NCBI RefSeq assembly: GCF_028473145.1
Contig: NZ_CP092370.1
Coordinates: 1,116,001-1,180,000 of the forward strand
From: Flavobacterium sp. CBA20B-1
GTDB taxonomy: Bacteria; Bacteroidota; Bacteroidia; Flavobacteriales; Flavobacteriaceae
Length of the DNA: 64,000 nt
Direction: 5' to 3'
Shown: positions 45,569 through 64,000 of the stretch, piece by piece
Position numbering within the stretch: position 1 is the first letter of the stretch
Layout: every line of letters begins with the position of its first letter
Program-made: the position numbers and the translations under genes
Notes under the pieces: generated by a model
Told to the model about the DNA's origin: nothing
Seen by the model: the letters and a program-made list of their open reading frames with translations, nothing else
Database searches by the model: none

Positions 45569-45738
45569 TGCGTAATTGTGATATATTCTAATAACAAATA
45601 TAAGTTTTTTTTGGGATATAGATTTATTGCGCAACTGAAAACTTTTTGTAAGTATCTGAAAAACTATGCTTTATATTGTATTTATTATATATTTTTTGTT
45701 TTACATGGATTTTTAATTTAATTTCGTATATATTTGTG
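45569..45738. promoter_or_regulatory. Recombinase upstream region / candidate attI
   Basis: This 170-bp AT-rich region separates the recombinase start from the first array unit. In an integron it would hold the attI site and the promoters. The junction to the first unit reads TTTGTG|ATGTAGCG, whereas inside the array the same unit is preceded by ACCG|ATG. No folded attC-like stem is visible here, as expected for attI. Functional assignment is inference. Confidence 0.5.
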
Positions 45739-45896
45739 ATGTAGCGAAATCCGCTTACGCTCCTTTCGCTACATCGGGGCGACGCCTGCACCGCACGATG
45801 CGCTTGTCGCTTCGCGAACTTCGCACATCATGCGGTTTTGCTAAATCCTTTCCCCGAGCAAGCTCGGAAAAAGAACTTCGCAAAGCCGCCGCCCCG
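45739..45896 (+). repeat. Gene-less mini-unit, copy 1
   Basis: A GC-rich unit that recurs identically three more times in the array. It opens with ATGTAGCGAAA, has 14 bases, then TTTCGCTACAT (the reverse complement). After that comes a folded site with outer stem CGGGGCG/CGCCCCG, an inner ACCGCACGATG/CATCATGCGGT stem and a CCGAGCAAGCTCGG hairpin. It fits a cassette without a gene. This copy is first in the array, next to the recombinase. Confidence 0.8.
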
Positions 45897-46028
45897 TTGT
45901 GCGTCAGCATTTCCGAACAATCGCACAAAAATCAGCTTCGACAAAATATTGACTTAAGAGTGAATTTTTACTGAAAACACTTGTTTCCTAAATAAGAAAC
46001 TTTTATCTTTGCTTAAAAATGATATTGA

Positions 46029-46376
46029 CTGGATGAATACAAATTTCGGGTTGAATTTTTAGAAGAAGCGAAAGAATTTTTGGATAGTTTGGACGAAAAA
46101 ACAAGAAACAAAGTTGTTTACAATGTTTGGAAAGCTCGAAGTGTAAACGACAAAGACCTTTTTAAGAAATTGCAAGACGAAATTTGGGAATTCAGAACAA
46201 AATACAACAAAGCCTATTATCGACTTTTTGCATTTTGGGACAAAACCAACAAAAATGATACAGTTGTAATATCAACTCACAGACTGATTAAGAAAACGGA
46301 CAAAATTCCGAAAAGTGAGATTGAACGAGCAGAGAAATTAAGAGAAAAGTATTTTAACGAAAAAAATAAAAAATAA
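46029..46376 (+). CDS. higB: HigB/RelE-type toxin (Gp49-like)
   Basis: The reading matches Gp49-like HigB ribonucleases, which cut mRNA on the ribosome (VEFLEEAKEFLDSLDEKTR; IWEFRTKYNKAYYRLFAFWD; VVISTHRLIKKTDKIP). Homology extends upstream of the TTG at 46080 to about 46032 (DEYKFRVEFLEEA), but there is no in-frame ATG/GTG before the stop at 46026; only CTG at 46029. One extra G in GGATGAATAC would create ATGGAATAC, so a 1-bp deletion may have removed the start. The stop overlaps the higA start (TAATG). Confidence 0.75.
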   Translation: MDEYKFRVEFLEEAKEFLDSLDEKTRNKVVYNVWKARSVNDKDLFKKLQDEIWEFRTKYNKAYYRLFAFWDKTNKNDTVVISTHRLIKKTDKIPKSEIERAEKLREKYFNEKNKK

Positions 46377-46684
46377 TGAAGACATATAGTTTAGAAGATT
46401 TGACCGACCAATTCATCGGAAAAAAAGGAACAAAAAAGCGTGACGAGTTTGAAAACGAACTTCGTCTTGACTTGTTGGGACAAGCGATAAAACAGGCTCG
46501 ACAAGAACGCAACTTGACACAAGAAGAATTGGGCGAATTGGTGGGCGTGAAAAAAGCTCAAATCTCAAAAATCGAAAATAGTACAACTGATGCAAGATTT
46601 ACAACAATTTTGAAAGTTTTTGAAGCTTTGGGAGCAAAAGTGAACTTCAATGTCGAACTAAATAACAAAAAATTAGCTTACTAA
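46376..46684 (+). CDS. higA: HigA-type antitoxin with XRE helix-turn-helix
   Basis: A 102-residue protein with an N-terminal part that may wrap the toxin and a classic HTH (RQERNLTQEELGELVGVKKAQISKIENSTTDARFTTILKVFEALG). It neutralises HigB and represses the operon. The toxin-first order is typical of higBA. Toxin-antitoxin cassettes are known to stabilise large integron arrays. Confidence 0.87.
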   Translation: MKTYSLEDLTDQFIGKKGTKKRDEFENELRLDLLGQAIKQARQERNLTQEELGELVGVKKAQISKIENSTTDARFTTILKVFEALGAKVNFNVELNNKKLAY

Positions 46685-46696
46685 AAACTATGCCGA

Positions 46697-46824
46697 ACGC
46701 ACAACAAGGTATTGCCAAAAGCGGGGCTGAAAGTATTCCTTTGAAGTTTTTTACTATATTTGAATTATGGTATTTCCCTTGAAGTTGGGACACAAAATCC
46801 CCCGCCTTCGGCAATACCCAACCG
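46697..46824 (+). repeat. attC-like site, family C (after HigBA)
   Basis: ACGCACAAC-AA, then stem GGTATTGCCAAAAGCGGGG against CCCCGCCTTCGGCAATACC, ending in CAACCG. Two A-C mismatches on the top strand become T-G pairs on the bottom strand. The loop contains TATATTTG. Confidence 0.8.
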
Positions 46825-46982
46825 ATGTAGCGAAATCCGCTTACGCTCCTTTCGCTACATCGGGGCGACGCCTGCACCGCACGATGCGCTTGTCGCTTCG
46901 CGAACTTCGCACATCATGCGGTTTTGCTAAATCCTTTCCCCGAGCAAGCTCGGAAAAAGAACTTCGCAAAGCCGCCGCCCCG
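46825..46982 (+). repeat. Gene-less mini-unit, copy 2
   Basis: Identical to 45739-45896. It is inserted exactly between ACCG of the previous site and TTACCTGC of the next cassette. Confidence 0.8.
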
Positions 46983-47026
46983 TTACCTGCTATTATAGAA
47001 CGACAACGAACTAACTGAGATTAAGT

Positions 47027-47599
47027 ATGGAATTTATAACAAGGACAATACTGACACTTTTTATAACAATCGGACTGAACTCGTGTAACTCTCAAAACAT
47101 AGTGACAGTTTTTGAAACCAATGAAAAGGATAAGGCGACAGAACTCAATGAAACTAAGATTTACAAATTAAAAAAGCAGACAACAAATTCTGACTTCAAC
47201 TATTCGAAACTTAACGGCATTGACGGTCATAAAATGGACACCTTGAATATCCGAAACATAATTACCGTTTTTGAACCAGTACGTGGAGAATTCAATTATT
47301 ATCAATTTTTAGCGACATTTAAGGGAGAAGGTTACAATTCTGGAGAAGCTCCAATTATTAAGGACTTTCACGACATTTTAATCATCAAAACTGACAGCGA
47401 CAACAACATTTTAGATAGTTACCATTACACATTAGAGTGGGCAGAAATACCATTACAATATGACGTATTTAAGGGTTCTTCGAAGAATTTAAAACTTACA
47501 GACAGTTTACAAATTTCAAAACTCAAACTAATACGGACATATAGTTGGAGTGAAGACAATAAAGAACTAATGGACAACGGGATAATCAGACTGAAATGA
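47027..47599 (+). CDS. Cassette lipoprotein of unknown function (190 aa)
   Basis: A lipoprotein signal (TILTLFITIGLNSC, Cys20) is followed by about 170 mostly beta-rich residues (FNYYQFLATFKGEGYNSGEAPIIKDFHDILIIKTDSDNNILDSYHYTLEWAEIP). I recognise no domain. The gene fills its cassette, ending 7 bp before the recombination site. Three cassettes in this window begin with such lipoprotein signals, so export is a common theme of the cargo. Confidence 0.75.
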   Translation: MEFITRTILTLFITIGLNSCNSQNIVTVFETNEKDKATELNETKIYKLKKQTTNSDFNYSKLNGIDGHKMDTLNIRNIITVFEPVRGEFNYYQFLATFKGEGYNSGEAPIIKDFHDILIIKTDSDNNILDSYHYTLEWAEIPLQYDVFKGSSKNLKLTDSLQISKLKLIRTYSWSEDNKELMDNGIIRLK

Positions 47600-47606
47600 G
47601 AAAAAC

Positions 47607-47735
47607 AGCAGGTAACAACACCTACCCAAAAGTGGCTGTTCATTGGTTAAATCAAGCTTTGTACTTCTATCAAAATTTCTGCTTGGTTGACAGTGAAGTG
47701 CTTCGAAATCGCCACCTTCGGGTAGCTGCAAACCG
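47607..47735 (+). repeat. attC-like site, family D
   Basis: AGCAGGTAAC-AACAC, then CTACCCAAAAGTGGC paired with GCCACCTTCGGGTAG, ending CAAACCG. The same two A-C mismatches (AAAA against CTTC) are present as in family C. Confidence 0.8.
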
Positions 47736-47893
47736 ATGTAGCGAAATCCGCTTACGCTCCTTTCGCTACATCGGGGCGACGCCTGCACCGCACGATGCGC
47801 TTGTCGCTTCGCGAACTTCGCACATCATGCGGTTTTGCTAAATCCTTTCCCCGAGCAAGCTCGGAAAAAGAACTTCGCAAAGCCGCCGCCCCG
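47736..47893 (+). repeat. Gene-less mini-unit, copy 3
   Basis: Identical to copy 1; lies between AAACCG and TTGCCCAC. Confidence 0.8.
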
Positions 47894-47913
47894 TTGCCCA
47901 CAATTTGAAAAAA

Positions 47914-48825
47914 ATGCAGAAATTAATTATAATTTTAGCTTTAATTACAATTTCTTGCAAAGGAGAAACCGAGAAAACTAACTCGACTGAAAAATATACG
48001 GCCGAAATTATTACAACATCGGAATTTGAATTAATCAAAGCTGAAAATCAAAAAGGACTGTTGATTTTATTTCCCTGCTTCCTTTGCGACGCTAAAAACA
48101 CATTAAACGAATTTAAGATTTCAGAAATTAGCGTTAATAATGGCTTTTCAGTTTTGGCAATGAACTTAAACGAACTCTTATACCTTAAACCAAAAGAAAA
48201 ACAAGAATTGGCTGAATAACTAACGAAAATTGTTAATGAACATAACTTACCAAAAATGAACATATTTGTTGGTGGATTTTCGAGCGGAGGAAATGTGAGT
48301 TTAACAATCTCTGATTATCTTGTGAATAACAAAAGCCAAATTCAACCAAAAGGCGTTTTTATTGTGGATTCGCCAATTGACCTTTTGGGACTTTACAGAA
48401 CAGCAGAAAAAAATTTAAAGCTCAATTTTTCAAAACCATCGGTTGCGGAATCAAAGTGGATTAAAGAAATGTTAGATAATGAGTTTGGAAATCCAGAAAA
48501 CGGAATCAACAATTACGAACTGAACTCGCCTTTCACTTTAGAAACCCAATATATTGAGAACTTGAGAGGATTGAAAAATCTAAAAATCAGATTTTATACA
48601 GAACCTGATTTAAAATGGTGGGATGAACACGCAAAAAACGATTATAAAGATTTAAATGCTTTTTACATTCAAAAATTATCAGATCAATTAAAAGTCGAGT
48701 TTGGAAAAGATAATATTGAACTTATAAAAACAGAAAATCAAGGCTATCGAGCAAATGGAGAAAGACATCCACATTCTTGGTCGATAGTAAATGAAAAAGA
48801 TTTAGTAAATTGGATGACTGAATAA
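47914..48825 (+). pseudogene. Lipoprotein alpha/beta-hydrolase-like gene with in-frame stop
   Basis: The ATG at 47914 begins a lipoprotein signal (MQKLIIILALITISC). The frame runs to a TAA at 48217-48219 and then continues in the same frame (LTKIVNEHNLPKMNIFVGGFSSGGN...) to 48825. A single nonsense change splits a ~303-residue protein. The second part has the nucleophile elbow GFSSG (Gly-x-Ser-x-Gly) and a late His in GERHPHSW, as in alpha/beta hydrolases. Either the gene is dead or two pieces are made. Confidence 0.75.
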
Positions 48826-48830
48826 AAAAC

Positions 48831-49018
48831 TGTGGGCAACAATGTATAACCGCAATAGCGGGTTAGGTGCTAAAATCAAAGTTTCTATTTCCTTTGTCGC
48901 TACTTGCAAATTAATTTCCTTTTTGTAAATTTAGCAAATAAATATGCAAGTAGCTTATGTTTGTGTAAAGTTGAAAGTTTTGACTTCTCTACTCCGCTAC
49001 TGCGTTTATACGTAACCG
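48831..49018 (+). repeat. attC-like site, family E
   Basis: TGTGGGCAAC-AAT, then GTATAACCGCAATAGCGG paired with CCGCTACTGCGTTTATAC, ending GTAACCG. There is one A-C and one C-T mismatch. The loop of ~110 nt contains TATGTTTG, a possible promoter -7 box. Confidence 0.75.
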
Positions 49019-49587
49019 TTGGCTACAATTTCGCATCAAAACGACAATTGAAAATTAATTGAATTATTTACCGAAACGGACGGAAAATTATAATGCGGAA
49101 TTCAGAAACTGAAAAAAAACTCAGCGGAACTAAACTAAAAATATAATTGTGGAAATTTGTCGCAAACGAAAATTGCGGAAAAAACGTGAAATTACTAAAC
49201 GGAATTTGACTGTCCAGAGCTGAAGAATTAATAAAATCGCTCGAAAAAATTAAGTCGAAAAAAACTAAATCTAAAACAAATAGAATTTAAAAAACAGCGG
49301 AAAAAATTCAACGAAAAATGAATTTAGCAATGAAATCTAAATTTTATGTGATTTTATCACGAAAATCGCACAAAAACTAACCGAAAAGCACGCAAAACAC
49401 AAAACTGCAGCCAACAAAGGCTATACATAATGCGGGGTTAAGTGTGTAATTTTAAATTTTCGTCTTGTTTTTCGCTTCGCCTTTTGTATATTTATTGAAA
49501 ATTTAAAATATTCAACGGCTACGCTCTACTTCGTGCCGATTTGAAACTTTCAGCTTTCAAATCCCGCACTACGTATAGCCCAGACCG
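49019..49587 (+). mobile_element. Cassette 7: gene-less cassette, copy 1
   Basis: Starts TTGGCTACA; its site starts TGCAGCCAA (49406), 8 of 9 complementary. The ~390 bases between hold no ORF on either strand. They are A-rich, with repeated CGGAAAA, GCGGAA and AACGAAAA motifs. A second copy at 50898 carries an insertion sequence. It may encode an RNA or be a decayed gene. Confidence 0.7.
49406..49587 (+). repeat. attC-like site, family A, copy 1
   Basis: AAC-AAA, stem GGCTATACATAATGCGGG against CCCGCACTACGTATAGCC, ending CAGACCG. Two A-C mismatches on top become T-G on the bottom strand. The ~130-nt loop is shared by four sites and contains TTG-N19-TATATTTA. Confidence 0.85.
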
Positions 49588-49636
49588 TTGTGTGCAATTT
49601 TACCGAAATCCCGCACCAAAAATAAAACACAGAAAA

Positions 49637-50551
49637 ATGGGAATATTTGACAAACTCTTTAGTGCTAAAAAAAGTGAAGCACCTACCTGGAAAATTGAAT
49701 TAAATGATAATGGAATTTTCATTAATGAAATTGAAATTTCATTTCCCACATCAATATCAAAACTTTCTGAAATTTTCGGAGAGCCAACTCGTCAATATCA
49801 CGAAGATAATGATTGGAGAATAATTTGGGACAATCTAGGCGTTTGTACTAACGGAGGTTTAAGCAATATTCTCGACCTACGCTTCTTAATCAAACCAGAA
49901 AATAATTTAAAACATCTACCCAAAGATTTGTTTAAAGGAGTAATTTTAGTAAATGGAAAAGCCTCTGAAAGTATAGAGGAGCAATGGACAAAAGTAAACA
50001 AATATCAGTTTGGAAAATTAAGATATAAAGGTGATGAGAATAATGACATATATTGTTATTCACTTATGAAAAACTATTCCTACAAAGAAATTAAGGACAA
50101 AAACAAATATAAACTTCATAAAATATCGGGAGAAAAAATTGAGTTTAATGACTTTAATTTCAAATTGGCTATTATCGAAGAACTCATGTACAATAAAGAG
50201 CTTTTAAAGCCAAAATTTGATGTTTATGAATTTGCAGAGTTTTACGATAAAAGAGAGATTGACATTGATGAAGATGGTTATGACCCAATTCCCGAAGTTG
50301 TAGAATATTTTAAAGCATTAGAAATTGACAAAAAATTTGCAGAGGAAATCACAGAAATATATCAAGACGGAGGAAACGAAATCTATATGAACATTACGCC
50401 ATTTTGGGATGGCGAAGACGATGAATTTAACATTACTAATTATGATGACGTCAAACACTTTCCTAACTTAAAGAAAATGACTTTATTTGGAACCAACCCA
50501 AAAATTTTTGAAGAACTTAAATCAAAAGGAATTGATGCAAAACCACTATAA
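49637..50551 (+). CDS. DUF6892-like cytoplasmic protein (304 aa)
   Basis: The start at 49637 (MGIFDKLFSAKKSE) was preferred because the 32 upstream codons lie inside the previous recombination site. The N-terminal half (residues 15-150) contains KIELNDNGIFINEIEISFPTSISKLSEIFGEP, like DUF7738-type modules. The C-terminal half (about 160-300) has FKLAIIEELMYNKELLKPKFDVYEFAEFYDKREIDIDEDGYDPIPEVVEYF, which I associate with DUF6892. Such proteins often sit near immunity or SMI1-like genes, but no function is established here. Confidence 0.65.
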   Translation: MGIFDKLFSAKKSEAPTWKIELNDNGIFINEIEISFPTSISKLSEIFGEPTRQYHEDNDWRIIWDNLGVCTNGGLSNILDLRFLIKPENNLKHLPKDLFKGVILVNGKASESIEEQWTKVNKYQFGKLRYKGDENNDIYCYSLMKNYSYKEIKDKNKYKLHKISGEKIEFNDFNFKLAIIEELMYNKELLKPKFDVYEFAEFYDKREIDIDEDGYDPIPEVVEYFKALEIDKKFAEEITEIYQDGGNEIYMNITPFWDGEDDEFNITNYDDVKHFPNLKKMTLFGTNPKIFEELKSKGIDAKPL

Positions 50552-50557
50552 CAAAAC

Positions 50558-50739
50558 TGCACACAACAAAGGCTATACATAATGCGGGTTTAAGTGCAAA
50601 ATTTGAAATTTTCGTCTTGTATTTCGCTTCGCCTTTTGTATATTTATTGAAAATTTAAAATATTCAACGGCTACGCTCTACTCCGTGCCGATTTGAAACT
50701 TTCAGCATTCAAATCCCGCACTACGTATAGCCGAGACCG
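50558..50739 (+). repeat. attC-like site, family A, copy 2
   Basis: Same stem and loop as 49406-49587; ends GAGACCG and is followed directly by a mini-unit. Confidence 0.85.
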
Positions 50740-50897
50740 ATGTAGCGAAATCCGCTTACGCTCCTTTCGCTACATCGGGGCGACGCCTGCACCGCACGAT
50801 GCGCTTGTCGCTTCGCGAACTTCGCACATCATGCGGTTTTGCTAAATCCTTTCCCCGAGCAAGCTCGGAAAAAGAACTTCGCAAAGCCGCCGCCCCG
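50740..50897 (+). repeat. Gene-less mini-unit, copy 4
   Basis: Identical to copy 1; lies between GAGACCG and TTAGCTAC. Confidence 0.8.
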
Positions 50898-51148
50898 TTA
50901 GCTACAATTTCGCATCAAAACGACAACTGAAAATTAATTGAATTATTTACCGAAAACGGACGGAAAATTATAATTCGGAATTCAGAAACTGAAAAAAAAC
51001 TCAGCGGAAATGAACGTAAAATAGATTACGGAAATTTGTAGCAAACGAAAATTTCGGAAAAAACGTGAAATTACTAAACGGAATTTGACTGTTCAGAGCT
51101 GAAGAATTAATAAAATCGTTCGAAAAAATTAAGTCGAAAAAAACTAAA

Positions 51149-52933
51149 GAGGCTGTCCAAAAAGGATAGCCTCTTTGTTATACTACTAACTTTTCAACAT
51201 CATCACTAAAGTTAATTTCTTGCTTTTTTTGAAATAAAGACCGCTGATAGCATCTAAATTCGACAAAAATGACAAGTTTAGAACCAAAAATACGGCGTTT
51301 GAATACCGTTTTTCTTCCCGCAACTGCTACAGCCACCATTTTTCTAAAATTATGTCCAAGAGCCATCAGTAGAAATTCTAATTCTACTTTCTCTAAGCCT
51401 TTGAATGTAAATCTATTAAAATCATTATTGTGCTTGAGTTGCCCAAAAACAGCCTCTACTTCTATAGGGCGTTTACTGCGATGTTCCAGCCCTTTCTCGC
51501 TCGTTAATAAATTTCGAGCCTTTTCTTTAAGCTCATTCAACCGGTGATTGACTTCTATTCTGCGATTACCTTTTGCATTGAAGCATTGCTCTCGAAGCGG
51601 ACAATTATTACAGTTTTTTGCCTGATAATAAGACACTTGCGATTCGTGTCCGTTGCTCGAAATTCGTTTTCCTTTGCCAACATTTTCCATTCGTTGACCC
51701 ATCGGACAAACGTAAAAATCTTGTTCTTTGTTGTAGAATAAATTCTGAACCAAAAACGGATTATTTTTCATCGTCCGTTTCGCTTCTTTGTGAAAATAAT
51801 TGTACTTCACGTAGGCTTTAATGCTTTTATTTTCAAGCATTTCGTAATTTTCTTCGCTTCCATAACCTGCATCGGCAACCACATCTTTGCTTTGTTTTCC
51901 ATAGAGATTTTCAAAACCATCAAGATGCGATTCCAAAGTCGTGGTATCCCCCGGTTTTTGATGGATGGAAACGTGGGTAATAAACTGATTTTCAGTTGAA
52001 ATCTGCGTATTATAAGCCGGTTTAAGCTGTCCGTTTTTCATGTGATCTTCCTTCATCCGCATAAAAGTAGCGTCAGGGTCGGTTTTGCTGTAAGAATTCC
52101 TATCGCCTAAAGTTTCTAGGTCTTTTTCGTATTTTTCTAATTTTGGAAGATGCTCATCCTGAAGTTTTTGTAGCTCTTTTGCCTGTTTTTTAGTGGGTTC
52201 TTTCAGCTTTTTATTCAAGATCGATAGCTTCTCCCGAAGTTCTTCCGAATTGATGCTTTTAGGTAATTCTTCTTTGTTAATTTCTTGATTATCAGACTGA
52301 ATAGCACTTTCGATATCTGAAAGAATCGTGTTGATTTTAACTTCTAATTTTTCCTTGTATTTTTCAATCGAACCTCTCCAAACAAAAGTATAACGATTCG
52401 ATTTGGCTTCGATTTTTGTTCCATCAATGTACTGAATATCAAGACTTACATAGCCCATTTCAACCAGCATTTTCACTACTTCGGCAAATAGTTGTTGAAT
52501 ATGATTTTTTAATATTTTCCCTCGAAAGTCGTTAATGGTTCGGAAATCAGGCGTAGAGTTGCCCGAAATGTACATGAAATAGATGTTTTCGGTGAGTGCT
52601 TTAGCTATTTTCCGGCAAGAATAAACGTTTGACAAATAGCTGTAAAACAACACTTTAATCATCATTCTTGGATGATATGCAGAGGTACCACCTCCTTTGT
52701 ACAACTTAATTATATTGCTAATATCCAACGAGTTAACGACCTCTTCGATTAATCGAACAGGGTGATTATTAGGGATTTTATCAAAAATATTAATCGGAAA
52801 AAGTTCAGGACTATTGCCTGTTTGATTTTTAAAAACTACCTTAGCCATTGTTGGTTTTTTGTGCAACTCTAAGATAATTATTTTGGAGAAAAAATACAAC
52901 AAAAAAAAGCTGTCCGACTTTTCGGACAGCTTC
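51149..52933 (-). mobile_element. IS1182-family insertion sequence
   Basis: The ~1785-bp element has imperfect terminal repeats (GAGGCTGTCC at the left, GAAGCTGTCC at the right, read inward). It carries one transposase. It splits the gene-less cassette. Relative to the uninterrupted copy, about 25 bp (TCTAAAACAAATAG...) are missing at the junction. No clear target duplication is visible. Confidence 0.8.
51178..52848 (-). CDS. IS1182-family DDE transposase
   Basis: The start at 52848 (MAKVVFKNQTGNSPELFPINIFDKIPNNHPVRLIEEVV) fits the family; the longer frame would enter the terminal repeat. Blocks: YHPRMMIKVLFYSYLSNVYSCRKI, FMYISGNSTPDFRTINDFR, VADAGYGSEENYEML, the Cys-rich NCNNCPLREQCF and RPIEVEAVFGQLKHNNDFNRF. 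About 557 residues, apparently intact. Confidence 0.9.
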   Translation of the reverse strand: MAKVVFKNQTGNSPELFPINIFDKIPNNHPVRLIEEVVNSLDISNIIKLYKGGGTSAYHPRMMIKVLFYSYLSNVYSCRKIAKALTENIYFMYISGNSTPDFRTINDFRGKILKNHIQQLFAEVVKMLVEMGYVSLDIQYIDGTKIEAKSNRYTFVWRGSIEKYKEKLEVKINTILSDIESAIQSDNQEINKEELPKSINSEELREKLSILNKKLKEPTKKQAKELQKLQDEHLPKLEKYEKDLETLGDRNSYSKTDPDATFMRMKEDHMKNGQLKPAYNTQISTENQFITHVSIHQKPGDTTTLESHLDGFENLYGKQSKDVVADAGYGSEENYEMLENKSIKAYVKYNYFHKEAKRTMKNNPFLVQNLFYNKEQDFYVCPMGQRMENVGKGKRISSNGHESQVSYYQAKNCNNCPLREQCFNAKGNRRIEVNHRLNELKEKARNLLTSEKGLEHRSKRPIEVEAVFGQLKHNNDFNRFTFKGLEKVELEFLLMALGHNFRKMVAVAVAGRKTVFKRRIFGSKLVIFVEFRCYQRSLFQKKQEINFSDDVEKLVV

Positions 52934-53047
52934 AACAGCGGAAAAAATTCAACGAAATATGAATTTAGCAATGAAATCTAAAATTTATGTGATTTTTTCA
53001 CTAAAAAACGCACAAAAACTAACCGAAAAGCACGCAAAACACAAAAC

Positions 53048-53230
53048 TGTAGCCAACAAAGGCTATACATAATGCGGGGTTAAGTGTGAAATTTGAAATT
53101 TTCGTCTTGTTTTTCGCTTCGCCTTTTGTATATTTAGTGAAAATTTAAACTATTCAACGGCTACGCTCCTACTCCGTGCCGATTTGAAACTTTCAGTCTT
53201 CAAATCCCGCACTACGTATAGCCCAGACCG
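53048..53230 (+). repeat. attC-like site, family A, copy 3
   Basis: Same family A stem and loop; ends CAGACCG, followed by TTGTGGTGC. Confidence 0.85.
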
Positions 53231-53254
53231 TTGTGGTGCATATAAAAAAACGAA

Positions 53255-55017: not shown

Positions 55018-55770
55018 ATGCCTTTTACATTTTCACACCCAGCAATAATACTACCATTGACTTTTTTACCAAGACATTGGTTTTCGCTGACTGGACTTGT
55101 AATTGGAAGCCTCACTCCTGACTTCGAATATTTTATAAGAATGAGAATTAAAAGCGAATTCAGTCATACAATTGAAGGACTTTTTTGGTTTGACTTACCA
55201 CTAGGACTAATACTCGCTTTTTTATTTCACAGCATTGTACGTGACAGACTTTTCGACAACTTGCCGACATTTTTAAAATCACGATTTTTGTCTTTCCAAA
55301 AGTTTGACTGGAACGAACATTTCAAAAAAAATTGGATAGTAGTGTCTATTTCGATTTTAATCGGAGGCTCTTCACACATTTTTTGGGACAGTTTTACTCA
55401 CGACCACGGTTATTTTGTTCAGACCATTCCTGCGTTACAAAACGTGGTTGATTTTTTAGGTAGACAAATTCCCATTCTAAAAATATTACAACACTCTTCA
55501 ACATTACTCGGTGGACTTATAATTGCTTTTGCCATTTATAAACTACCTCAAAGTAAGACTGAAAACGACAATATAAATCTGAAATACTGGGCAATTTTAG
55601 TTGGACTGACCTCGACAATTATTTCAATCAGACTTTTGAGTGGACTTGACTTAAAACAATACGGAAACGTAATTGTGACAGCAATTTCCGCAGGACTAAT
55701 TTCACTAACAATAACACCTTGGCTGACAAAAAGTAAAAAAATAACTGGTGGTAACAATGGCTATACATAA
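55018..55770 (+). CDS. DUF4184-family membrane protein
   Basis: A 250-residue protein with about six membrane segments. The DUF4184 pattern is MPFTFSHPAIILPL, GLVIGSLTPDFEYF, FLFHSIVRDRLFDNLP and GGSSHIFWDSFTHDHGYF, with several conserved His/Asp that could bind a metal as in related metal-dependent membrane hydrolases. The reading frame runs into its own recombination site by about 24 bp. Biological role unknown. Confidence 0.8.
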   Translation: MPFTFSHPAIILPLTFLPRHWFSLTGLVIGSLTPDFEYFIRMRIKSEFSHTIEGLFWFDLPLGLILAFLFHSIVRDRLFDNLPTFLKSRFLSFQKFDWNEHFKKNWIVVSISILIGGSSHIFWDSFTHDHGYFVQTIPALQNVVDFLGRQIPILKILQHSSTLLGGLIIAFAIYKLPQSKTENDNINLKYWAILVGLTSTIISIRLLSGLDLKQYGNVIVTAISAGLISLTITPWLTKSKKITGGNNGYT

Positions 55771-55927
55771 TGCGGGGTTAAGTGTGAAATTTGAAATTTT
55801 CGTCTTGTAATTCGCTTCGCCTTTTGTATATTTAGTGAAAATTTAAAATATTCAACGGCTACGCTCTACTCCGTGCCGATTTGAAACTTTCAGCTTTCAA
55901 ATCCCGCACTACGTATAGCCCAGACCG
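55747..55927 (+). repeat. attC-like site, family A, copy 4
   Basis: Family A stem and loop; ends CAGACCG, followed by TTATGGGC. Confidence 0.85.
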
Positions 55928-55977
55928 TTATGGGCAACCCCACGACCGAGCAACCCGACATTCGATTTTAAAACACA

Positions 55978-57309
55978 ATGGAAAATAAACCGAAAATAAT
56001 AAAAGTAAGAGAGTTGCTTACAAATGACTCTTTACAAATTCCAAGTTACCAACGTCCTTACAAATGGACAACGAAAAATGTCAATCAACTTATTGACGAC
56101 ATTCTAATACACAAAGAAAAATCAGAATATCGTTTAGGAACGCTTGTGGTTCACAATCACGACAATATTTCTGACATTGTTGACGGACAACAACGAACAA
56201 TTACTTTGACATTGATTGCTTATGCAATAACTCAAAAACAAAACAAAACGACAGAAGAAGAAAAAGCCTTAAAAAGTTTTGACCCTAAACTTTTGAATTT
56301 ATCTTTTGCTAATGACATTTCAAAAGCAAATATCCAAAACAACTACAAACAAATCGAAAGACGAATTGCAGATTTTGACGAAAAGTCAATATGGTTCTTC
56401 TTGGAAAAATGCACTTTGGTAGAAGTGGTATTGAATGATATTTCAGAAGCATTTCAGTTTTTTGATTCTCAAAATTCAAGAGGTAAAGATCTTGAACCAC
56501 ACGACTTGTTAAAGGCATTTCACTTGCGAGAAATGAATAATTTTTCAACGGAAGAAGAACGCAAAAAGACTGTTGAAAAATGGGAAAGTTTGGACACAGC
56601 AAAACTTTCAAAACTATTTTCACAGTATTTATTCAGAATTAGAAATTGGAGCAAAGGACATTCAGCACGATATTTTTCAAAAAATGAAGTTGATGTTTTC
56701 AAAGGTGTAAGTCCCGACATTGAAGAAAATTATCCTTTTGCATCAATGCTTCGCATTGCTCATTTTTATGTTGAAGAATACAACAGCTCATTTCACAGAA
56801 ATATAGACAAACGAGAAATGACTTTCCCTTTTCAAATAGATGAAACTATTATAAACGGAAAACGATTTTTTGAAATGATAGAACATTATCAAATGATGAT
56901 TGATAATGTAAAGTCAAAAGAAATGAGTGAAAAATATCCTATTTTAAACACAATCAAAACGTATGACGGTAGTTTCCGCACAGGCGACAAATATATTCGC
57001 AACTTGTTTAATTGTGGTTTAATTTATTACATAGACAAATTTGGGGATAAAGATTTATCAAAAGCTATTGATAAAATTTTTGTTTGGGCATATACATTAC
57101 GTTTGAAGTTACAAGCAGTTGGCATTGATTCTGTTGATAATTTTGCTCTAAATCAAGGACATTCTCAAATTCAGCTATTCAAGAAAATGAAAGAAACGAT
57201 TAAACCTAATGACATATTAAACTTACGACTTGAGACTTTAAAAGAAAACAAATCAAGCAAAACAGAACTAATTGTTGAACAATTCAAGCGTTTGAAATAT
57301 TATGAATGA
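55978..57309 (+). CDS. DUF262 protein, GmrS-like (443 aa)
   Basis: The N-terminal ParB/Srx-like NTPase domain has LQIPSYQRPYKWTTKNVNQLIDDI (20-43) and the nucleotide-binding motif DGQQR (69-73). No HNH block is visible in the C-terminal part. DUF262 proteins with a DUF1524 partner form GmrSD-type modification-dependent restriction systems and related phage-defence systems. It overlaps the next gene by 8 bp, so the two are translated together. The gene is inside one cassette and probably forms a two-protein defence unit. Confidence 0.8.
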   Translation: MENKPKIIKVRELLTNDSLQIPSYQRPYKWTTKNVNQLIDDILIHKEKSEYRLGTLVVHNHDNISDIVDGQQRTITLTLIAYAITQKQNKTTEEEKALKSFDPKLLNLSFANDISKANIQNNYKQIERRIADFDEKSIWFFLEKCTLVEVVLNDISEAFQFFDSQNSRGKDLEPHDLLKAFHLREMNNFSTEEERKKTVEKWESLDTAKLSKLFSQYLFRIRNWSKGHSARYFSKNEVDVFKGVSPDIEENYPFASMLRIAHFYVEEYNSSFHRNIDKREMTFPFQIDETIINGKRFFEMIEHYQMMIDNVKSKEMSEKYPILNTIKTYDGSFRTGDKYIRNLFNCGLIYYIDKFGDKDLSKAIDKIFVWAYTLRLKLQAVGIDSVDNFALNQGHSQIQLFKKMKETIKPNDILNLRLETLKENKSSKTELIVEQFKRLKYYE

Positions 57310-59272
57310 TAAACAGCCGAAATATTACAATATAAAAACATTATTGGGTTCAGACGATTATGTAATTCCAATCTACCAAAGAAATTACGAATGGGGAGAG
57401 CCTCAAATAACTCAACTTATTCAAGACATTGTAGATTACATTCTTAAAAGCAAAGTATCAGAGAATAAACCTAAATACTACATTGGTTCTTTGATTGCTT
57501 ACGAAAGAAAATTAGAGGGAAGCGTAAACTATGAAACCATAGACGGACAACAACGCTTAACAACATTAACCATATTGTTGAATGTAATCAAAAATGAATA
57601 TTCAACGATTGATTTATCTTGGTATAAAAAACTCAATTTGTCTTTTGACAGCCGTAAAATTGCGTCAAACACACTTTCATATCTTTTTAAAGATGAAAGT
57701 TTAGACAATAAAGAATGTAATGTTGCTATTCAACAAGGTTATTATGATGCAAAAAAATCATTAGCGAAAATATTAGCTGACAATGATTTGTCTATTGATG
57801 AATTTTGCAATTACTTTTTTGATAAGGTTACAATCTTGCGTGTTTTAGTTCCAGAAGACACAGACTTGAACCATTATTTTGAAATAATGAATAGTCGTGG
57901 AGAACAATTAGAAAAACACGAAATTTTAAAAGCAAAAATGCTTGAAATTTTGGAAGACGACAATTTGAAATATGCTTTCAACTTGATTTGGGAAGCAACT
58001 TCAAATATGGAAAAATATGTTCAATACGGTTTTTCAGTTGCACAAAGAGATGAACTATTTGGTAAAAATGATTGGAACAATTTAGTTGGTAAAGACGATT
58101 TATATCAGAAATTACAAATTCCAACAGCTAATCAAACTTCAGAAGAAACTCTGACTATTAGCCAACTTCTTTTAAAAACAGCAAAACCTATTTCTGATAA
58201 TTCAAGCACTACTGACGAAAGCCCAGATAGATTTAATACAATTATCAATTTTGCAAACTTCTTACTTCACATTTTAAGAATACAAACAAAATTCGACGTT
58301 CCATTAGACGACAAACGACTTTTGGAATTGTTTGAACCCTATTTGAAAGCTGAGGGTAAAAAAGAATTTGTAAAACAATTTGGTTACAATTTGTTGAAAG
58401 GGAAATTCTATTTTGATAAATATGTTATAAAAAGAGAGTTTGCAAAAGGTTCTGACCATTGGAGCTTGAAACGATTGAAATGGTATGACGGAAATAAAGT
58501 TAGTTATGTAAATACTTTTGATGCGGATAATGTAGAAACCAATGACGGTGCTAATAGAGAAATTTTGATGTTGTTATCAATGTTTCACGTTTCAAATCCA
58601 ACATTGGTTTACAAACATTGGTTAAACGCTTCCTTGAAGTTCGTTGTAGAATATTCGGGAACTAACTTGGCAAACGATTATAAATCATATCTTGAAAATC
58701 TTGCAAAATCATTTTTAAATGACAGATATTTAGCCGTTAATCAAAGAGATTTTTATGAAATAATTTATACAAACAACGGACAACACAAAAATTCTGAAAC
58801 AGACATTGAAATTAACAAACTCAATCAAGGAACAGCAGTAGAAAACTTTATTTTTAATTACCTTGATTATTTGTTGTGGCAAGATTATAGGACTAACAAA
58901 AATTATTTCAAAATCAAGAATGGACAAGCATTTACAGACAATCGTGTGAAAGATTTTGAATACACTTTTAGAAGTTCGGTAGAGCATTATTATCCACAAC
59001 ACCCTATTGACGAAAACTTAATCTTAAAAGGACAAGATGCTGATTGGTTAGACAATTTTGGAAATCTCTGCCTTATTAGCGGTAGTAAAAATTCTCGTTT
59101 GAGTAATTTTATGCCAACAGCAAAGAAAGATTATTATACAGGAAGTTCAACAATTGACAGTATAAAACAACGAATTATGATGGAATATGAGCATTGGGAC
59201 ACAAACGGTTCGAATAATCATAATGAAATAAAAGAACACTGCGAAAAAATGACTGAATTACTAACAAGATAA
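57302..59272 (+). CDS. DUF262-DUF1524 protein, GmrSD-like (656 aa)
   Basis: N-terminal DUF262 domain with YVIPIYQRNYEWGEPQ (20-35) and IDGQQRLTT (80-88). The C-terminal DUF1524 (HNH-like) nuclease domain has VEHYYPQHP, then DNFGNLCLISGSKNSRLSNFMPTAKKDYY, the expected His...Asn order. It would use nucleotide hydrolysis to control cutting of modified or foreign DNA. Two DUF262 proteins in tandem, with only the second carrying a nuclease, is a recognisable defence layout. Confidence 0.82.
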   Translation: MNDKQPKYYNIKTLLGSDDYVIPIYQRNYEWGEPQITQLIQDIVDYILKSKVSENKPKYYIGSLIAYERKLEGSVNYETIDGQQRLTTLTILLNVIKNEYSTIDLSWYKKLNLSFDSRKIASNTLSYLFKDESLDNKECNVAIQQGYYDAKKSLAKILADNDLSIDEFCNYFFDKVTILRVLVPEDTDLNHYFEIMNSRGEQLEKHEILKAKMLEILEDDNLKYAFNLIWEATSNMEKYVQYGFSVAQRDELFGKNDWNNLVGKDDLYQKLQIPTANQTSEETLTISQLLLKTAKPISDNSSTTDESPDRFNTIINFANFLLHILRIQTKFDVPLDDKRLLELFEPYLKAEGKKEFVKQFGYNLLKGKFYFDKYVIKREFAKGSDHWSLKRLKWYDGNKVSYVNTFDADNVETNDGANREILMLLSMFHVSNPTLVYKHWLNASLKFVVEYSGTNLANDYKSYLENLAKSFLNDRYLAVNQRDFYEIIYTNNGQHKNSETDIEINKLNQGTAVENFIFNYLDYLLWQDYRTNKNYFKIKNGQAFTDNRVKDFEYTFRSSVEHYYPQHPIDENLILKGQDADWLDNFGNLCLISGSKNSRLSNFMPTAKKDYYTGSSTIDSIKQRIMMEYEHWDTNGSNNHNEIKEHCEKMTELLTR

Positions 59273-59350
59273 ACGGGGCAGCCCATAATCGAGTAGACGG
59301 CTCCGCCAATAACTGACGGAGTGCGCCTCTCACACCACCGAGCGTACGGG

Positions 59351-60646
59351 TCACGTACTCGGCGGTTCGCAAAGAGATGGATTAAGCTCTAAATATAATT
59401 CGGTTAAGGAAATATACCCCCTTTTCTTCAAGCGTTGTAAAGTAATGGTTGTTCCTAAAATAGGACTTTGTGCAATTGCCCAACCTCCTTTTCTCGTTCT
59501 GCTCCAAGCGTAGGCGTGGTCTTGGCTGGCGCCCAATCGAATCAGGTTTTTCCGCTTTCGTTCAGGTTTCTTCCAATGATGCCAAATGCAGTAGCGCAGT
59601 CGGTTACGTAACCAACCATCTAAATCTCGTAATTTGCCCAAAATACTCGTGCCTTGAAAATAGTTCAACCATCCTCGTTGCACTTCTTTTATCTTGGTAA
59701 TACGTTCTTCGAACGTGGCTGGTGTAGTTTTTCGGGTTATGGCTTTGAGTCGCTCTTTTAGTTTCTTCCATGCCTTTTCCGAAACGATGAGTTGGTATTG
59801 ATTCTTGCTTCCTTTTTTGTACGTAGGCACAAACCCAAAACCTAAAATCGTGAAGTTGATTGGTTTTCTAATACCGCTCTTTTCTTCATTTATAGTTAAT
59901 TTGAGCTTGTTTTTCAGGAACTTCTCAATTACCACTCTCGTAGCTTTGGCTTGATTGTGGCTTTTGCAATAGATACTAAAATCATCCGCATAACGTACAA
60001 ATTTGTGTCCTCTTCGGGTCATTTCCTTATCCAATTGATGCAGTAAAATGTTCGACAATAGCGGACTTAAGGGACTTCCTTGCGGAACGCCTTTTCTTCT
60101 CTTTTGTAGCTTTCCGTTGATTTTAATCGGTGCTCTGAGCCATTTACGTATGAGTTGCAGGGTAGCTTTGCATTTTACTTTCTGATAAATTAAATTCAGT
60201 ACTAAACAATGGTCAACTTCATCGAAGAAGTTTTTCAGGTCGATATCAACAATGTGATTGAGCCCTGAATGGATGTATTCCCTAGATTGTCCAACAGCTT
60301 GTCGGGCATTCTTCTGGGGTCTAAATCCAAAACTATAATTACTAAATTCGGGTTCAAAAAGTGGTGCAAGGGTTTGTGCTACGGCTTGTTGCAACACACG
60401 TTCTGTAGTGGTGGGAACACCCAATAATCGGGTGTTTCCGTTTCCTTTCGGAATTTCGATACCTAAAATGGGGTGTACTTGGTAGTTTCCGTGTTTGATG
60501 TCTTCAATCAGTTGTAGTTTCTTTTCAGAAAACACCTTGCGGAGTTCTCGGATAGAAACACCATCAACACCCGCACTGCCTTTATTGGCAATAACGTGTT
60601 CCAATGCTTTTTGAAGATTAAACGGTTGTACTACTCTTGTTATCAT
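59351..60646 (-). CDS. ltrA: Group II intron reverse transcriptase/maturase (intact)
   Basis: A 431-residue protein with an RT domain in the usual order: VIANKGSAGVDGVSI, RLLGVPTTTERVLQQAVAQTLAPLFEPEFSNYSFGFRP, DIDLKNFFDEVDH, QGSPLSPLLSNILLHQLD and the catalytic FVRYADDFSIYCKS. A maturase part follows (GWLNYFQGTS, LRDLDGWLRNRLR). No C-terminal endonuclease domain is seen, as in group IIC. A 10-bp insertion near 60687-60696 separates the N-terminal extension present in the other copy, so I start at MITRVVQPF. Confidence 0.88.
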   Translation of the reverse strand: MITRVVQPFNLQKALEHVIANKGSAGVDGVSIRELRKVFSEKKLQLIEDIKHGNYQVHPILGIEIPKGNGNTRLLGVPTTTERVLQQAVAQTLAPLFEPEFSNYSFGFRPQKNARQAVGQSREYIHSGLNHIVDIDLKNFFDEVDHCLVLNLIYQKVKCKATLQLIRKWLRAPIKINGKLQKRRKGVPQGSPLSPLLSNILLHQLDKEMTRRGHKFVRYADDFSIYCKSHNQAKATRVVIEKFLKNKLKLTINEEKSGIRKPINFTILGFGFVPTYKKGSKNQYQLIVSEKAWKKLKERLKAITRKTTPATFEERITKIKEVQRGWLNYFQGTSILGKLRDLDGWLRNRLRYCIWHHWKKPERKRKNLIRLGASQDHAYAWSRTRKGGWAIAQSPILGTTITLQRLKKRGYISLTELYLELNPSLCEPPST

Positions 60647-60830
60647 TTTAGCTTGTTTTAACCTGTTTTCGTTAAGTAGGGCTACTATGCGTTCCGTTAC
60701 TCATTAAAAACCTCTTTACGTTCGGTCCTTCCTTAATTGTGAGTCCTATGCGGTATCTATTCGCACCTCGTTTGCCTTCAAGTACTATGACCTCTGCTGA
60801 CTTCTCTTTGTGATTAACTCGTAATCTTTT

Positions 60831-60893
60831 GCCCGCCCGCCTGCTGGCTCGTTCGCTAAAAATGTCCATCGGACATTTTCTTTACGCTCTGCC
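60831..60893. repeat. 60-bp palindromic (REP-like) repeat, copy 2
   Basis: Same AAAATGTCC/GGACATTTT core as at 720-780. On the minus strand it supplies ATGGACATTTTTAGCGAACG, the possible start of a longer RT reading frame. Confidence 0.65.
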
Positions 60894-61259
60894 CTCCTGG
60901 TAAATGCTTTTCCCTTCCATCTATCGCCGGTACATCTACATAACAATAATCTGATTTAATAACATGTTCAGAACACTGTTTTGGACTTCGTATTGCTGTG
61001 GATACTCATCCTTATTGCTATGCCTCATATGTACTTTCTGTTCGTCGGTACAGATTTTTGCCGTTTGGCTTCCTTTAGTGCATACCTCACGGTAAACCAC
61101 CTTGCCACGTGCTAACGGTTCGGATTGTTAGTCCCGCCCGTAAGGGGCTTGCACCCTCTGGAAAAATAACACCCCGAAAACTTGGTCAATAAAACTAAAT
61201 TTGTATTTTTGAACTATTTGAAAAGCTTTCGGGATGTGTCCTGCATATGCAGGGCACAC

Positions 61260-61381
61260 ACAAGGTATTGCCAAAAGCGGGGCTGAAGGTATTCTTTTGA
61301 AGTTTTTTACTATATTTGAACTATGGTATTCTCCTTGAAGTTGAGGCACAAAATCCCCCGCCTTCGGCAATACCCAAACCG
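61260..61381 (+). repeat. attC-like site, family C, right portion (cassette 13)
   Basis: ACAA, then GGTATTGCCAAAAGCGGGG paired with CCCCGCCTTCGGCAATACC, ending CAAACCG before TTGTGTGC. It is continuous with 59281-59287 once the intron is removed. Confidence 0.8.
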
Positions 61382-61431
61382 TTGTGTGCAATATAACAGA
61401 ACAAAAAACGTATTACTAAAAATGACATAAT

Positions 61432-62121
61432 ATGGACAGAAAAAAATTTTTAAAGAAAGGATTGGTTGGATTAGGGACTATTGTTGCTTTACCAACAGTT
61501 ATAACCTCTTGCTCAAATGATGACGACAACAACTCTACAACTACAGGAGATTGTGATTTATCCCCAAGTGAAACAGCTGGGCCATTTCCAATTATAACAC
61601 CAGCTCAATTGGCTCAAGCAAATATAATTGGTAATAGAACTGGTGTGGCATTACTTATTACACTTACAGTTCAAGACCAAAGTGACGATTGCAACCCACT
61701 TTCTGGAGTATTAGTTGACTTATGGCATTGTGATGCGGAAGGAAACTACTCGCAGTATGGTGGAACTCAAATGCAACAAACAGATTATACAAATGAAGAT
61801 TTCTTACGTGGAAGACAAACAACGGATTCTAATGGACAAGTTTCGTTCATAAGTATTTTTCCAGGTTGGTATATGGGCAGAGCACCTCATATTCACGTAG
61901 AAATATTGGATTCAAATGAAAATTCGTTGCGTGTTACGCAAATTGCATTTCCTAAAGATATTTGTGATACGGTTTATGCAACAACGGGTTACAATGGAGA
62001 AGCTGATACACTAAATGAAAGTGACAATGTTTTTTCTGATAGCCTTGATGGTAATATGCTTGATTCCTTGACTGGAAATACTACTGATGGATATACTTTG
62101 TTAAAAACAATTGTAGTATAA
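61432..62121 (+). CDS. Intradiol ring-cleavage dioxygenase-like lipoprotein
   Basis: A 229-residue protein. The N-terminus MDRKKFLKKGLVGLGTIVALPTVITSC looks like a Tat-type leader with a single Arg, joined to a lipoprotein Cys, so it is probably exported and anchored. The body has the intradiol dioxygenase pattern: SPSETAGPFP, GVLVDLWHCDAEGNYSQY, FLRGRQTTDSNGQVSFISIFPGWYMGRAPHIHVEI. Possible Fe(III) ligands are Tyr in GNYSQY, Tyr in GWYMGR and the two His in PHIH. Whether it cleaves catechols is unknown. Confidence 0.8.
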   Translation: MDRKKFLKKGLVGLGTIVALPTVITSCSNDDDNNSTTTGDCDLSPSETAGPFPIITPAQLAQANIIGNRTGVALLITLTVQDQSDDCNPLSGVLVDLWHCDAEGNYSQYGGTQMQQTDYTNEDFLRGRQTTDSNGQVSFISIFPGWYMGRAPHIHVEILDSNENSLRVTQIAFPKDICDTVYATTGYNGEADTLNESDNVFSDSLDGNMLDSLTGNTTDGYTLLKTIVV

Positions 62122-62197
62122 AATACTGCACACAATCGAGTAGACGGCTCCGCCAATAACTGACGGAGTGCGCCTCTCACACCACCGAGCGTACGGG

Positions 62198-63706
62198 TCA
62201 CGTACTCGGCGGTTCGCAAAGAGATGGATTAAGCTCTAAATATAATTCGGTTAAGGAAATATACCCCCTTTTCTTCAAGCGTTGTAAAGTAATGGTTGTT
62301 CCTAAAATAGGGCTCTGCGCAATTGCCCAACCACCTTTTCTCGTTCTGCTCCAAGCGTAGGCGTGGTCTTGGCTGGCGCCCAATCGAATCAGGTTTTTCC
62401 TTTTCCTTTCGGGTTTCTTCCAATGGTGCCAAATGCAATAGCGCAGTCGGTTTCTTAACCAACCATCTAAATCTCGTAATTTGCCCAAAATACTCGTGCC
62501 TTGAAAATAGTTCAACCATCCTCGTTGCACTTCTTTTATCTTGGTAATACGTTCTTCAAACGTGGCTGGTGTAGTTTTTCGGGTTATGGCTTTGAGTCGC
62601 TGTTTTAGTTTCTTCCATGCCTTTTCCGAAACGATGAGTTGGTATTGATTCTTGCTTCCTTTTTTGTACGTAGGCACGAACCCAAAACCCAAAATTGTGA
62701 AGTTGATTGGTTTTCTAATACCGCTCTTTTCTTCATTTATAGTTAATTTGAGCTTGTTTTTCAGGAACTTCTCAATTACCACTCTCGTAGCTTTGGCTTG
62801 ATTGTGGCTTTTGCAATAGATACTAAAATCATCCGCATAACGTACAAATTTGTGTCCTCTTCGGGTCATTTCCTTATCCAATTAATGCAGTAAAATGTTC
62901 GACAATAGCGGACTTAAGGGACTTCCTTGCGGAACGCCTTTTCTTCTCTTTTGTAGCTTTCCGTTGATTTTAATCGGTGCTCTGAGCCATTTGCGAATGA
63001 GTTGCATTGTAGCTTTGCACTTTACTTTTTGATAGATTAAATTCAGCACCAAGCAGTGGTCAACTTCATCGAAGAAGTTTTTCAGGTCAATATCCACAAT
63101 GTGATTGAGCCCTGAATGGATGTATTCCCTAGATTGTCCAACAGCTTGTCGGGCATTCTTCTGGGGTCTAAAACCAAAACTATAATTACTAAATTCGGGT
63201 TCAAAAAGTGGTGCAAGGGTTTGTGCTACGGCTTGTTGCAACACACGTTCTGTAGTGGTGGGAACACCCAATAATCGGGTGTTTCCGTTTCCTTTCGGAA
63301 TTTCGATACCTAAAATGGGGTGTACTTGGTAGTTTCCGTGTTTGATGTCTTCAATCAGTTGTAGTTTCTTTTCAGAAAACACCTTGCGGAGTTCTCGGAT
63401 AGAAACACCATCAACACCCGCACTGCCTTTATTGGCAATAACGTGTTCCAATGCTTTTTGAAGATTAAACGGTTGTACTACTCTTGTTATCATTTTAGCT
63501 TGTTTTAACCTGTTTTCGTTAAGTAGGGCTACTATACTCATTAAAAACCTCTTTACGTTCAGTCCTTCCTTGACTGTGAGTCCTATGCGGTATCTATTCG
63601 CACCTCGTTTGCCTTCAAGTACTATGACCTCTGCTGACTTCTCTTTGTGATTAACTCGTAATCTTTTGCCCGCCCGCCTGCTGGCTCGTTCGCTAAAAAT
63701 GTCCAT
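62198..63706 (-). pseudogene. Group II intron reverse transcriptase with nonsense mutation
   Basis: The reading starts MDIFSERASRRAGKRLRV and continues into MITRVVQPF and the RT domain. At 62882-62884 a CAA codon (Gln in LLHQLDKEM of the other copy) is TAA. The remainder reads MDKEMTRRGHKFVRYADD... to the end in the same frame. Without the stop it would be a ~502-residue protein. The YADD motif is behind the stop, so the protein is inactive unless supplied by the intact copy. Confidence 0.85.
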
Positions 63707-63730
63707 CGGACATTTTCTTTACGCTCTGCC
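63667..63730. repeat. 60-bp palindromic (REP-like) repeat, copy 3
   Basis: Identical in core to copy 2 and at the same place within the intron. Confidence 0.65.
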
Positions 63731-64000
63731 CTCCTGGTAAATGCTTTTCCCTTCCATCTATCGCCGGTACATCTACATAACAATAATCTGATTTAATAAC
63801 ATGTTCAGAACACTGTTTTGGACTTCGTATTGCTGTGGATACTCATCCTTATTGCTATGCCTCATATGTACTTTTTGTTCGTCGGTACAGATTTTTGCCG
63901 TTTGGCTTCCTTTAGTGCATACCTCACGGTAAACCACCTTGCCACGTGCTAACGGTTCGGATTGTTAGTCCCGCCCGTAAGGGACTTGCACCCTCTGGAA

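Follow-up and report, generated by a model that had tools for sequence, protein, structure and literature searches.

An integron-like cassette array beside a tyrosine recombinase lacking the IntI domain in the chromosome of Flavobacterium sp. CBA20B-1

Introduction

Which recombination system lies behind the long head-to-tail array of short gene units in the chromosome of Flavobacterium sp. CBA20B-1, and is it an integron? The array lies beside a tyrosine recombinase gene in a stretch of 64,000 nucleotides (the window; assembly GCF_028473145.1, contig NZ_CP092370.1, C1:1116001-1180000 of a 3.04-Mb genome), and coordinates below are window positions unless marked C1. An earlier note, made from the letters alone, had proposed an integron-like array of 14 units with all genes on the plus strand and reverse-complementary unit ends, and had taken it for a distinct integron type since the bases after GTT appeared to be free. 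Our analysis supports the integron-like array: on the strength of sequence comparison, it is very probably a chromosomal cassette array served by a tyrosine recombinase other than IntI. The system is integron-like in its workings, yet it is no IntI integron by the domain that defines IntI.

According to passages of two papers (PMC9668308, PMC2426708), integrons are defined and searched for via the IntI-specific domain, and passages of an IntegronFinder survey name one complete integron in the Bacteroidetes proper (PMC9024848). Searches keyed to that domain would therefore filter out the recombinase family considered here. No description of the array system was found in the passages surveyed from open-licence papers in PubMed Central, subscription papers and preprints being outside the scope; those passages include parts of PMC9024848, PMC9668308, PMC8138268, PMC7530245, PMC8618304, PMC7923331, and PMC2426708. 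Related recombinases and cassette sites recur across Bacteroidota, so that gene capture of the kind by which antibiotic resistance spreads elsewhere seems to have been overlooked in this phylum.

Results

From position 45739 onward, 14 units follow one another head to tail, where the earlier note had located them: ten are of gene type, and the other four are copies of a gene-less unit of 158 bp, type A (Table 1). Each gene-type unit starts directly after a G, at a junction of the form G/TTR, and closes with a folded site that runs from AAC, 3 nt, and an arm to a second arm, 6 nt, and G; most units hold one or two genes besides this site. The cargo comprises a HigBA-like pair, a GmrSD-type restriction pair, a PLD-like protein, and DUF proteins. 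The array extends beyond 64000, with further sites at C1:1180096 and C1:1181169 and a lone one at C1:1190118; the final array site seen ends at about 65290 in window coordinates, and the array is possibly longer. The genes are not all on the plus strand as had been claimed, given that an insertion sequence (IS) transposase of the IS1182 family and the reverse transcriptase frames of two group II intron copies lie on the minus strand. All seven pairs of complementary ends quoted in the earlier note are present; the complementarity is incomplete in units 49019 and 50898, with a single mismatch in the first nine bases of the end pair, and in the last two units (9 and 10), whose end arms are interrupted by a group II intron.

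The pairing of unit ends was examined in 15 array stretches, picked because units had been seen there, with sites located by their hairpin arms alone and end pairing ignored. In the 12 stretches that yielded consecutive sites, a unit's end paired with its own start over 6-7 of 7 bases in 60 of 69 cases, against 78 of 754 swapped pairs, which places the complementarity above chance level. A larger set of 110 units from 30 loci was selected for at least 8 paired bases, which leaves positions 12-14 outside the selection; position 12 was paired in 99 units, position 13 in 101, and position 14 in 87, and all three were paired in 83 (shuffled mean, 11.4; maximum, 19). Position 11 formed a Watson-Crick pair in none of the 110, with A at the start facing C at the end in 92, a mismatch on the top strand that is a T.G wobble on the bottom strand. 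Pairing of own start and end spans about 14 bases per unit, 69 distinct starts occur among the 110 units, and GTTRRRY is found in 8. A strict unit detector applied to the window alone gave a weak result (5 hits versus 0-3 in five shuffles; 5-11 in control stretches) because introns, an IS, and gene-less units break the chain and only 7 paired bases are required, and it is superseded by the site-first and relatives-based tests. When homologous cassettes in other genomes were compared at 16 of 30 retrieved loci, unit ends were visible in 2 of the 16.

When a unit's own end was joined to its own start to give the circular form of the site, 96 of 105 units folded more stably as the bottom strand (mean, −31.9 versus −28.1 kcal/mol; five units with sites under 100 nt omitted). 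An RNAalifold alignment of 55 sites, out of 64 passing a length filter and taken as bottom strands, yielded 17 consensus pairs, 16 of them with two-sided compensatory change, and one G.U wobble was retained in 50 of the 55. The covariance model built from this alignment (R1) detected 35 sites with E below 1e-4 in the source genome, the next match having E 0.16 (150 of 4569 candidates scored). Eleven of these lie in or just behind the window array, one 9 kb further, 10 and 9 in two more arrays, a pair at 363.5-364.8 kb, and two isolated sites at 233.0 kb and window 969. The window sites scored 55.9-101.5 bits, and all strong matches were on the bottom strand, the best window site reaching 101 bits there versus 23 bits on the top strand. 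Folding, covariation, and strand preference together predict a folded bottom-strand recombination site.

The recombinase likely starts at 45568, which gives 355 amino acids, a length also found in relatives. It scored 137 bits against PF00589 and 223.2 bits against NF040815 (cut-off, 220), a model for which one array-associated relative was over the cut-off (220.8) and three were under it (219.3, 210.5, and 196.2). Against the IntI model TIGR02249, it obtained 202 bits and the group of five 188-217 bits, below the cut-off of 265, whereas three IntI proteins reached 440-488 bits. The gap between the K..DR and HxLRH motifs measures 64-69 residues in array-associated recombinases versus 106-107 in the three IntI, the IntI-specific domain of roughly 41 residues is lacking, and the alignment to 2a3v breaks at this insert. 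In an 82-row tree with only 3 IntI rows, IntI formed a separate 100/100 branch, and the window recombinase was placed outside it. The R, K, H, R, H, and Y positions, which we take to be the catalytic residues, are invariant across 10 aligned recombinases. XerA was the best fold match for the window protein (VIA-align, covering only residues 75-343). PF22823 (MrpR_C_cat), listed for relatives, had no match in the source genome, and some family members carry the database name "site-specific tyrosine recombinase/integron integrase".

The window recombinase gene adjoins its array in divergent orientation, and recombinase and array also adjoin in relatives, of which the best 80 of at least 591 found in named genomes were analyzed. 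A strict unit lay downstream and co-directional at 22 of these 80 loci; strict units elsewhere at the same loci numbered 1 (upstream, plus), 2 (upstream, minus), and 7 (downstream, minus), and 240 locus-shuffles produced 11. Under relaxed geometry, 48 units were counted downstream versus 2 and 3 upstream, and shuffling each locus once gave 1; the 36 downstream minus hits were mostly identical units read in reverse. The first unit began 34-300 bp past the recombinase stop in 13 loci, and units were present in 6 of 8 same-genus or same-order loci with downstream sequence. The carriers include Flavobacterium enshiense, Winogradskyella ursingii, Seonamhaeicola aphaedonensis, Algibacter onchidii, Algoriphagus ornithinivorans, a Rufibacter, Bacteroidales metagenome-assembled genomes (MAGs), and one Spirochaetota MAG. 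In Paenimyroides aestuarii, 13 unit starts were paired through position 10, the first of them directly after CCATATATTTGCG. A Chryseobacterium plasmid holds the recombinase and 4 sites; on a second Chryseobacterium plasmid and a Parabacteroides plasmid, the recombinase was present and no site was found.

Next to the recombinase, the tandem cassettes begin directly behind the string TTTCGTATATATTTGTG, a putative attI-like attachment point. Three exact copies of it occur in the source genome, each heading an array and followed by type A, and one copy occurs in P. aestuarii (kinship label, same genus), followed by a cassette. At this point lies TATATTTG, which we take to resemble the Bacteroidota -7 promoter box, so that the insertion point would be right behind a likely promoter. 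One such locus is shared by the two species: its flank is 95.7% identical over 3119 bp and ends at TTTCGTATATATTTGTG (the alignment overruns the string by four bases, three matching by chance). Past this string, the source genome has type A and P. aestuarii has a different cassette, and the two arrays (about 19.6 and 9.9 kb) are unalignable except for three pieces of 44-130 bp, until the flank restarts at the last folded site with 94-95% identity over about 12 kb, in pieces. The earlier note had proposed junction variation among close strains as its test; such variation is seen here at a single locus, between two species. At the locus that carries the recombinase, flank identity is 87%, and a cassette with 77% identity is found again at a different position.

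The distribution across Bacteroidota was determined with a recombinase profile (A1; 296 phylum genomes, clear upper group, cut at 240 bits) and with R1 in 198 genomes, where site counts are a floor (17 candidates scored per genome) and are not kinship-weighted. Sites were found in 112 genomes and the recombinase in 70: 65 had both, 47 had sites only, 5 had the recombinase only, and 81 had neither. Canonical IntI was over its cut-off in 57 of 198 genomes of the identically drawn and labelled sample (kinship label: same class, 1; same phylum only, 56), 20 of which also hold the array-associated recombinase. This IntI share exceeds what the published survey passages suggest, and the sample follows another taxonomy. 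Sites were present in 48 of 50 genomes with the array-associated recombinase alone (mean, 9.1), in 10 of 37 with IntI alone (mean, 0.7), and in 17 of 20 with both. Because the recombinase lacks the IntI domain and falls outside the IntI clade, and because the sites track it and not IntI, the system is integron-like and distinct from IntI integrons.

Twenty IntI loci of the phylum served as a control, 10 of them with chained cassettes (60 units), some in genomes that carry the array-associated recombinase elsewhere. Position 11 was paired in 45 of the 60 units and positions 12-14 in 27, 21, and 25; the same detector run on 12 arrays with the array-associated recombinase found position 11 paired in 1 of 91 units and positions 12-14 in 78, 82, and 71. 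GTTRRRY was present in 17 of 60 and 3 of 91 units, respectively, and the R1 maximum in the ten IntI loci was 29.5 bits. An initial scan of three IntI loci with a first attC pattern, which had detected no canonical attC, is superseded by this control. Since cassette ends of IntI loci are also self-complementary, to about 11 bases, cassette-specific self-complementary ends are a general integron trait, and with 17 of 60 units conforming, GTTRRRY is a weak criterion. The free bases after GTT therefore fail as the distinguishing trait; the claim of a distinct type itself is upheld by the missing IntI domain, the separate place in the tree, the site family, and position 11. The skipped position 11 and the longer arm are specific to the sites of the array-associated recombinase.

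Table 1. Features of the recombinase locus and cassette array in the window
Feature	Position	Strand	Contents or basis
Tyrosine recombinase, array-associated Bacteroidota family	44501..45634	-	377-aa (amino acid) frame; PF00589, NF040815, TIGR02249 scores
Putative attI-like attachment point, string TTTCGTATATATTTGTG with Bacteroidota-type -7 box TATATTTG	45722..45738	+	Exact copies at array heads
Type A, copy 1	45739..45896	+	Gene-less, 158 bp; between G and TT
Unit 1	45897..46824	+	HigB/RelE-like 46080-46376; helix-turn-helix antitoxin-like 46376-46684; folded site from 46703
Type A, copy 2	46825..46982	+	Exact fit between G and TT
Unit 2	46983..47735	+	190-aa protein, no family match; site from 47614
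Type A, copy 3	47736..47893	+	
Unit 3	47894..49018	+	Single frame broken by in-frame stop; site from 48838
Unit 4	49019..49587	+	No clear gene; site from 49413
Unit 5	49588..50739	+	DUF7738/DUF6892 protein; site from 50565
Type A, copy 4	50740..50897	+	
Unit 6	50898..53230	+	Unit 4 copy (about 95%) split by IS1182-family element; site from 53055
IS1182-family transposase	51178-52971	-	Inside unit 6
Unit 7	53231..54962	+	PLD-like protein, weak match to phage-defence family; site from 54842
Unit 8	54963..55927	+	DUF4184 protein; site from 55753
Unit 9	55928..61381	+	GmrSD-type restriction pair 55978-57309 and 57302-59272; site split by group II intron
Group II intron in unit 9 site	59288..61259	-	Rfam RF02001, 110.6 bits; boundaries read from sequence
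Reverse transcriptase of unit 9 intron	59351-60646	-	General group II reverse transcriptase model TIGR04416, 366 bits
Unit 10	61382..64000	+	Gene 61432-62121; second intron copy from 62135; unit runs beyond window

Several units deserve separate mention. Units 4 and 6 have no clear gene of their own and are mutual copies whose end arms differ slightly. The gene of unit 3 (47905-48825) is interrupted by one in-frame stop and has a relative with 77% identity and the same end in the P. aestuarii array (DNA-level comparison), while the unit 10 gene gave no NCBIfam match and appears dioxygenase-like by eye. Type A has 11 full-length copies in the genome with 98-100% identity, every one exactly between G and TT; it comes first after the attI-like string in three arrays and, at a fourth location, after a variant of the string. 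Type A starts with AT, its two ends pair with each other over 11 bases, and it looks like a minimal or parasitic cassette. A second, decayed array occupies window positions 900-2100, where a single strong site (969-1092; 78.8 bits) is accompanied by intron remnants and an incomplete type A. Three copies of a two-gene element (a tyrosine recombinase and a 365-aa frame) lie within arrays (locus L044, 3273-5251 and 8266-10244; locus L045, 7753-9731), apparently beside the AAC of folded sites, and a Chryseobacterium plasmid carries a similar pair under the annotation IS91 family transposase and recombinase.

Discussion

We infer a cycle in which the recombinase would join the two ends of a unit into one bottom-strand hairpin site, cut between G and TT, and release the unit as a circle, which could then be inserted at the attI-like point or into a different site. 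Within this genus, insertion would take place directly after the promoter-like -7 box, and the newest cassette would therefore be transcribed from about its first base. A single recombinase appears to serve, in trans, several arrays of the genome. The weakest step of this proposal concerns recognition, for which the first 60 or so residues, which in some members are HARP-like, may take the place of the missing IntI domain in reading the hairpin.

Three other explanations were weighed against an integron-like system with its own recombinase. A drifted form of the canonical IntI integron, changed in both integrase and attC sites, is improbable in view of the short motif gap, the TIGR02249 scores under the cut-off in the window protein and four relatives, the separate IntI branch (three IntI rows), and the canonical attC stretches, which in ten IntI loci never approach the R1 scores of the window sites. 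The array could also be a cluster of attC sites lacking an integron integrase (CALIN), that is, stranded cassettes mobilised by a canonical IntI elsewhere, with the neighbouring recombinase as a bystander. Sites in 47 of 128 genomes without the array-associated recombinase would fit such a scenario, but the source genome has no IntI over the cut-off, none of the 57 IntI genomes in the sample belongs to its order (kinship label), genomes with IntI alone seldom have sites, and the first unit follows closely on the recombinase stop in 13 loci; we regard it as very unlikely. Transposons bounded by terminal inverted repeats, or scattered palindromic repeats that were copied together with genes, would account for unit ends that are inverted repeats and for the nearly unchanged recurrence of some site types and of type A. 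Arms that vary from unit to unit, however, could hardly be read by one transposase, no transposase belonging to the units was seen (target-site duplications were not searched for), the arms co-vary around a fixed mismatch, and the arrays of two species diverge at the attI-like point, which leaves this explanation with scarcely any probability.

Several observations weigh against the integron-like system with its own recombinase. R1 sites are present, with up to 17 per genome, in 37 of 91 genomes that have neither recombinase, representing either stranded arrays or recombinases below the cut. Among the best 80 loci, 58 lack a strict unit downstream, and in many of these the downstream sequence is short; of the eight same-genus or same-order loci with downstream room, two have no unit, and three further loci are at contig ends. 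The divergent layout in the window and in P. aestuarii departs from the co-directional arrangement of other unit-bearing loci, and type A begins with AT, not TTR. In neither species does a unit start match the last site of the shared locus, and homologous recombination could have produced the array differences there. HARP (PF07443) matches 3 of 27 family members (best E, 5.7e-6), and the window protein is unmatched.

The integron-like system resembles integrons in having a tyrosine recombinase beside a head-to-tail array, G/TT junctions, paired cassette ends, a folded site that is better on the bottom strand, and bottom-strand group II introns within sites. It differs from them in that the recombinase lacks the IntI-specific domain and falls outside the IntI branch, the sites form a separate family (position 11 fixed as T.G, arm length about 14 bases), the layout is often co-directional, and one genome holds several attI-like points. 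The two intron copies lie on the minus strand within the sites of units 9 and 10, opposite to the cassette genes, and the boundaries of the unit 9 copy correspond to TTGT/T on the bottom strand of the site; IIC-attC introns have the same target and orientation in canonical attC, according to passages of PMC7923331. The reverse transcriptase here was matched by the general group II model. XerA and NF040815 are the best fold match and the best curated family for the window protein, from which the array recombinase is set apart by an extra N-terminal domain, its linkage to cassette arrays, and scores that straddle the cut-off (196-223 versus 220). Smyshlyaev et al. 2021 reported, in the passages available, that the IntI insertion is incompletely conserved in an "integron-like" recombinase subgroup (PMC8138268); by this description, the array-associated family may be among the members lacking the insertion, for which those passages do not describe cassette arrays. 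Xer-pdif modules of Acinetobacter plasmids are likewise gene modules moved by a recombinase, but the sites described in passages of PMC7530245 are 28 bp and dif-like, in contrast to the long folded sites with unit-specific arms found here.

A broader reading, to which we assign even chances, is that roughly one in three of the sampled Bacteroidota genomes (70 of 198) holds a second class of integron, independent of IntI, in which folded bottom-strand sites would be read by a hairpin-binding N-terminal domain replacing the IntI domain, cassettes would be inserted behind a promoter, several arrays would be served in trans, and cassettes such as tet(X3) would have been fed into clinical plasmids. 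If so, a large pool of mobile cassettes has so far gone unseen in a major phylum, the IntI domain is dispensable for folded-site recombination, the R1 model enables wider searches for such arrays, and tet(X3) acquires a testable origin. In the tet(X3) region of Acinetobacter baylyi pJAT2044 (locus L177, 2967-4988), the unit scan found no unit, 6 of 9 end bases pair (by eye), and the site model gave 12 bits; the link of tet(X3) to the arrays therefore rests on position and recombinase kinship alone. The gene lies 190 bp behind a shortened recombinase of the array family (48% identity over query residues 142-377) and is bounded by a GTTA on one side and by the left half of a hairpin resembling a site on the other, the position of a first cassette.

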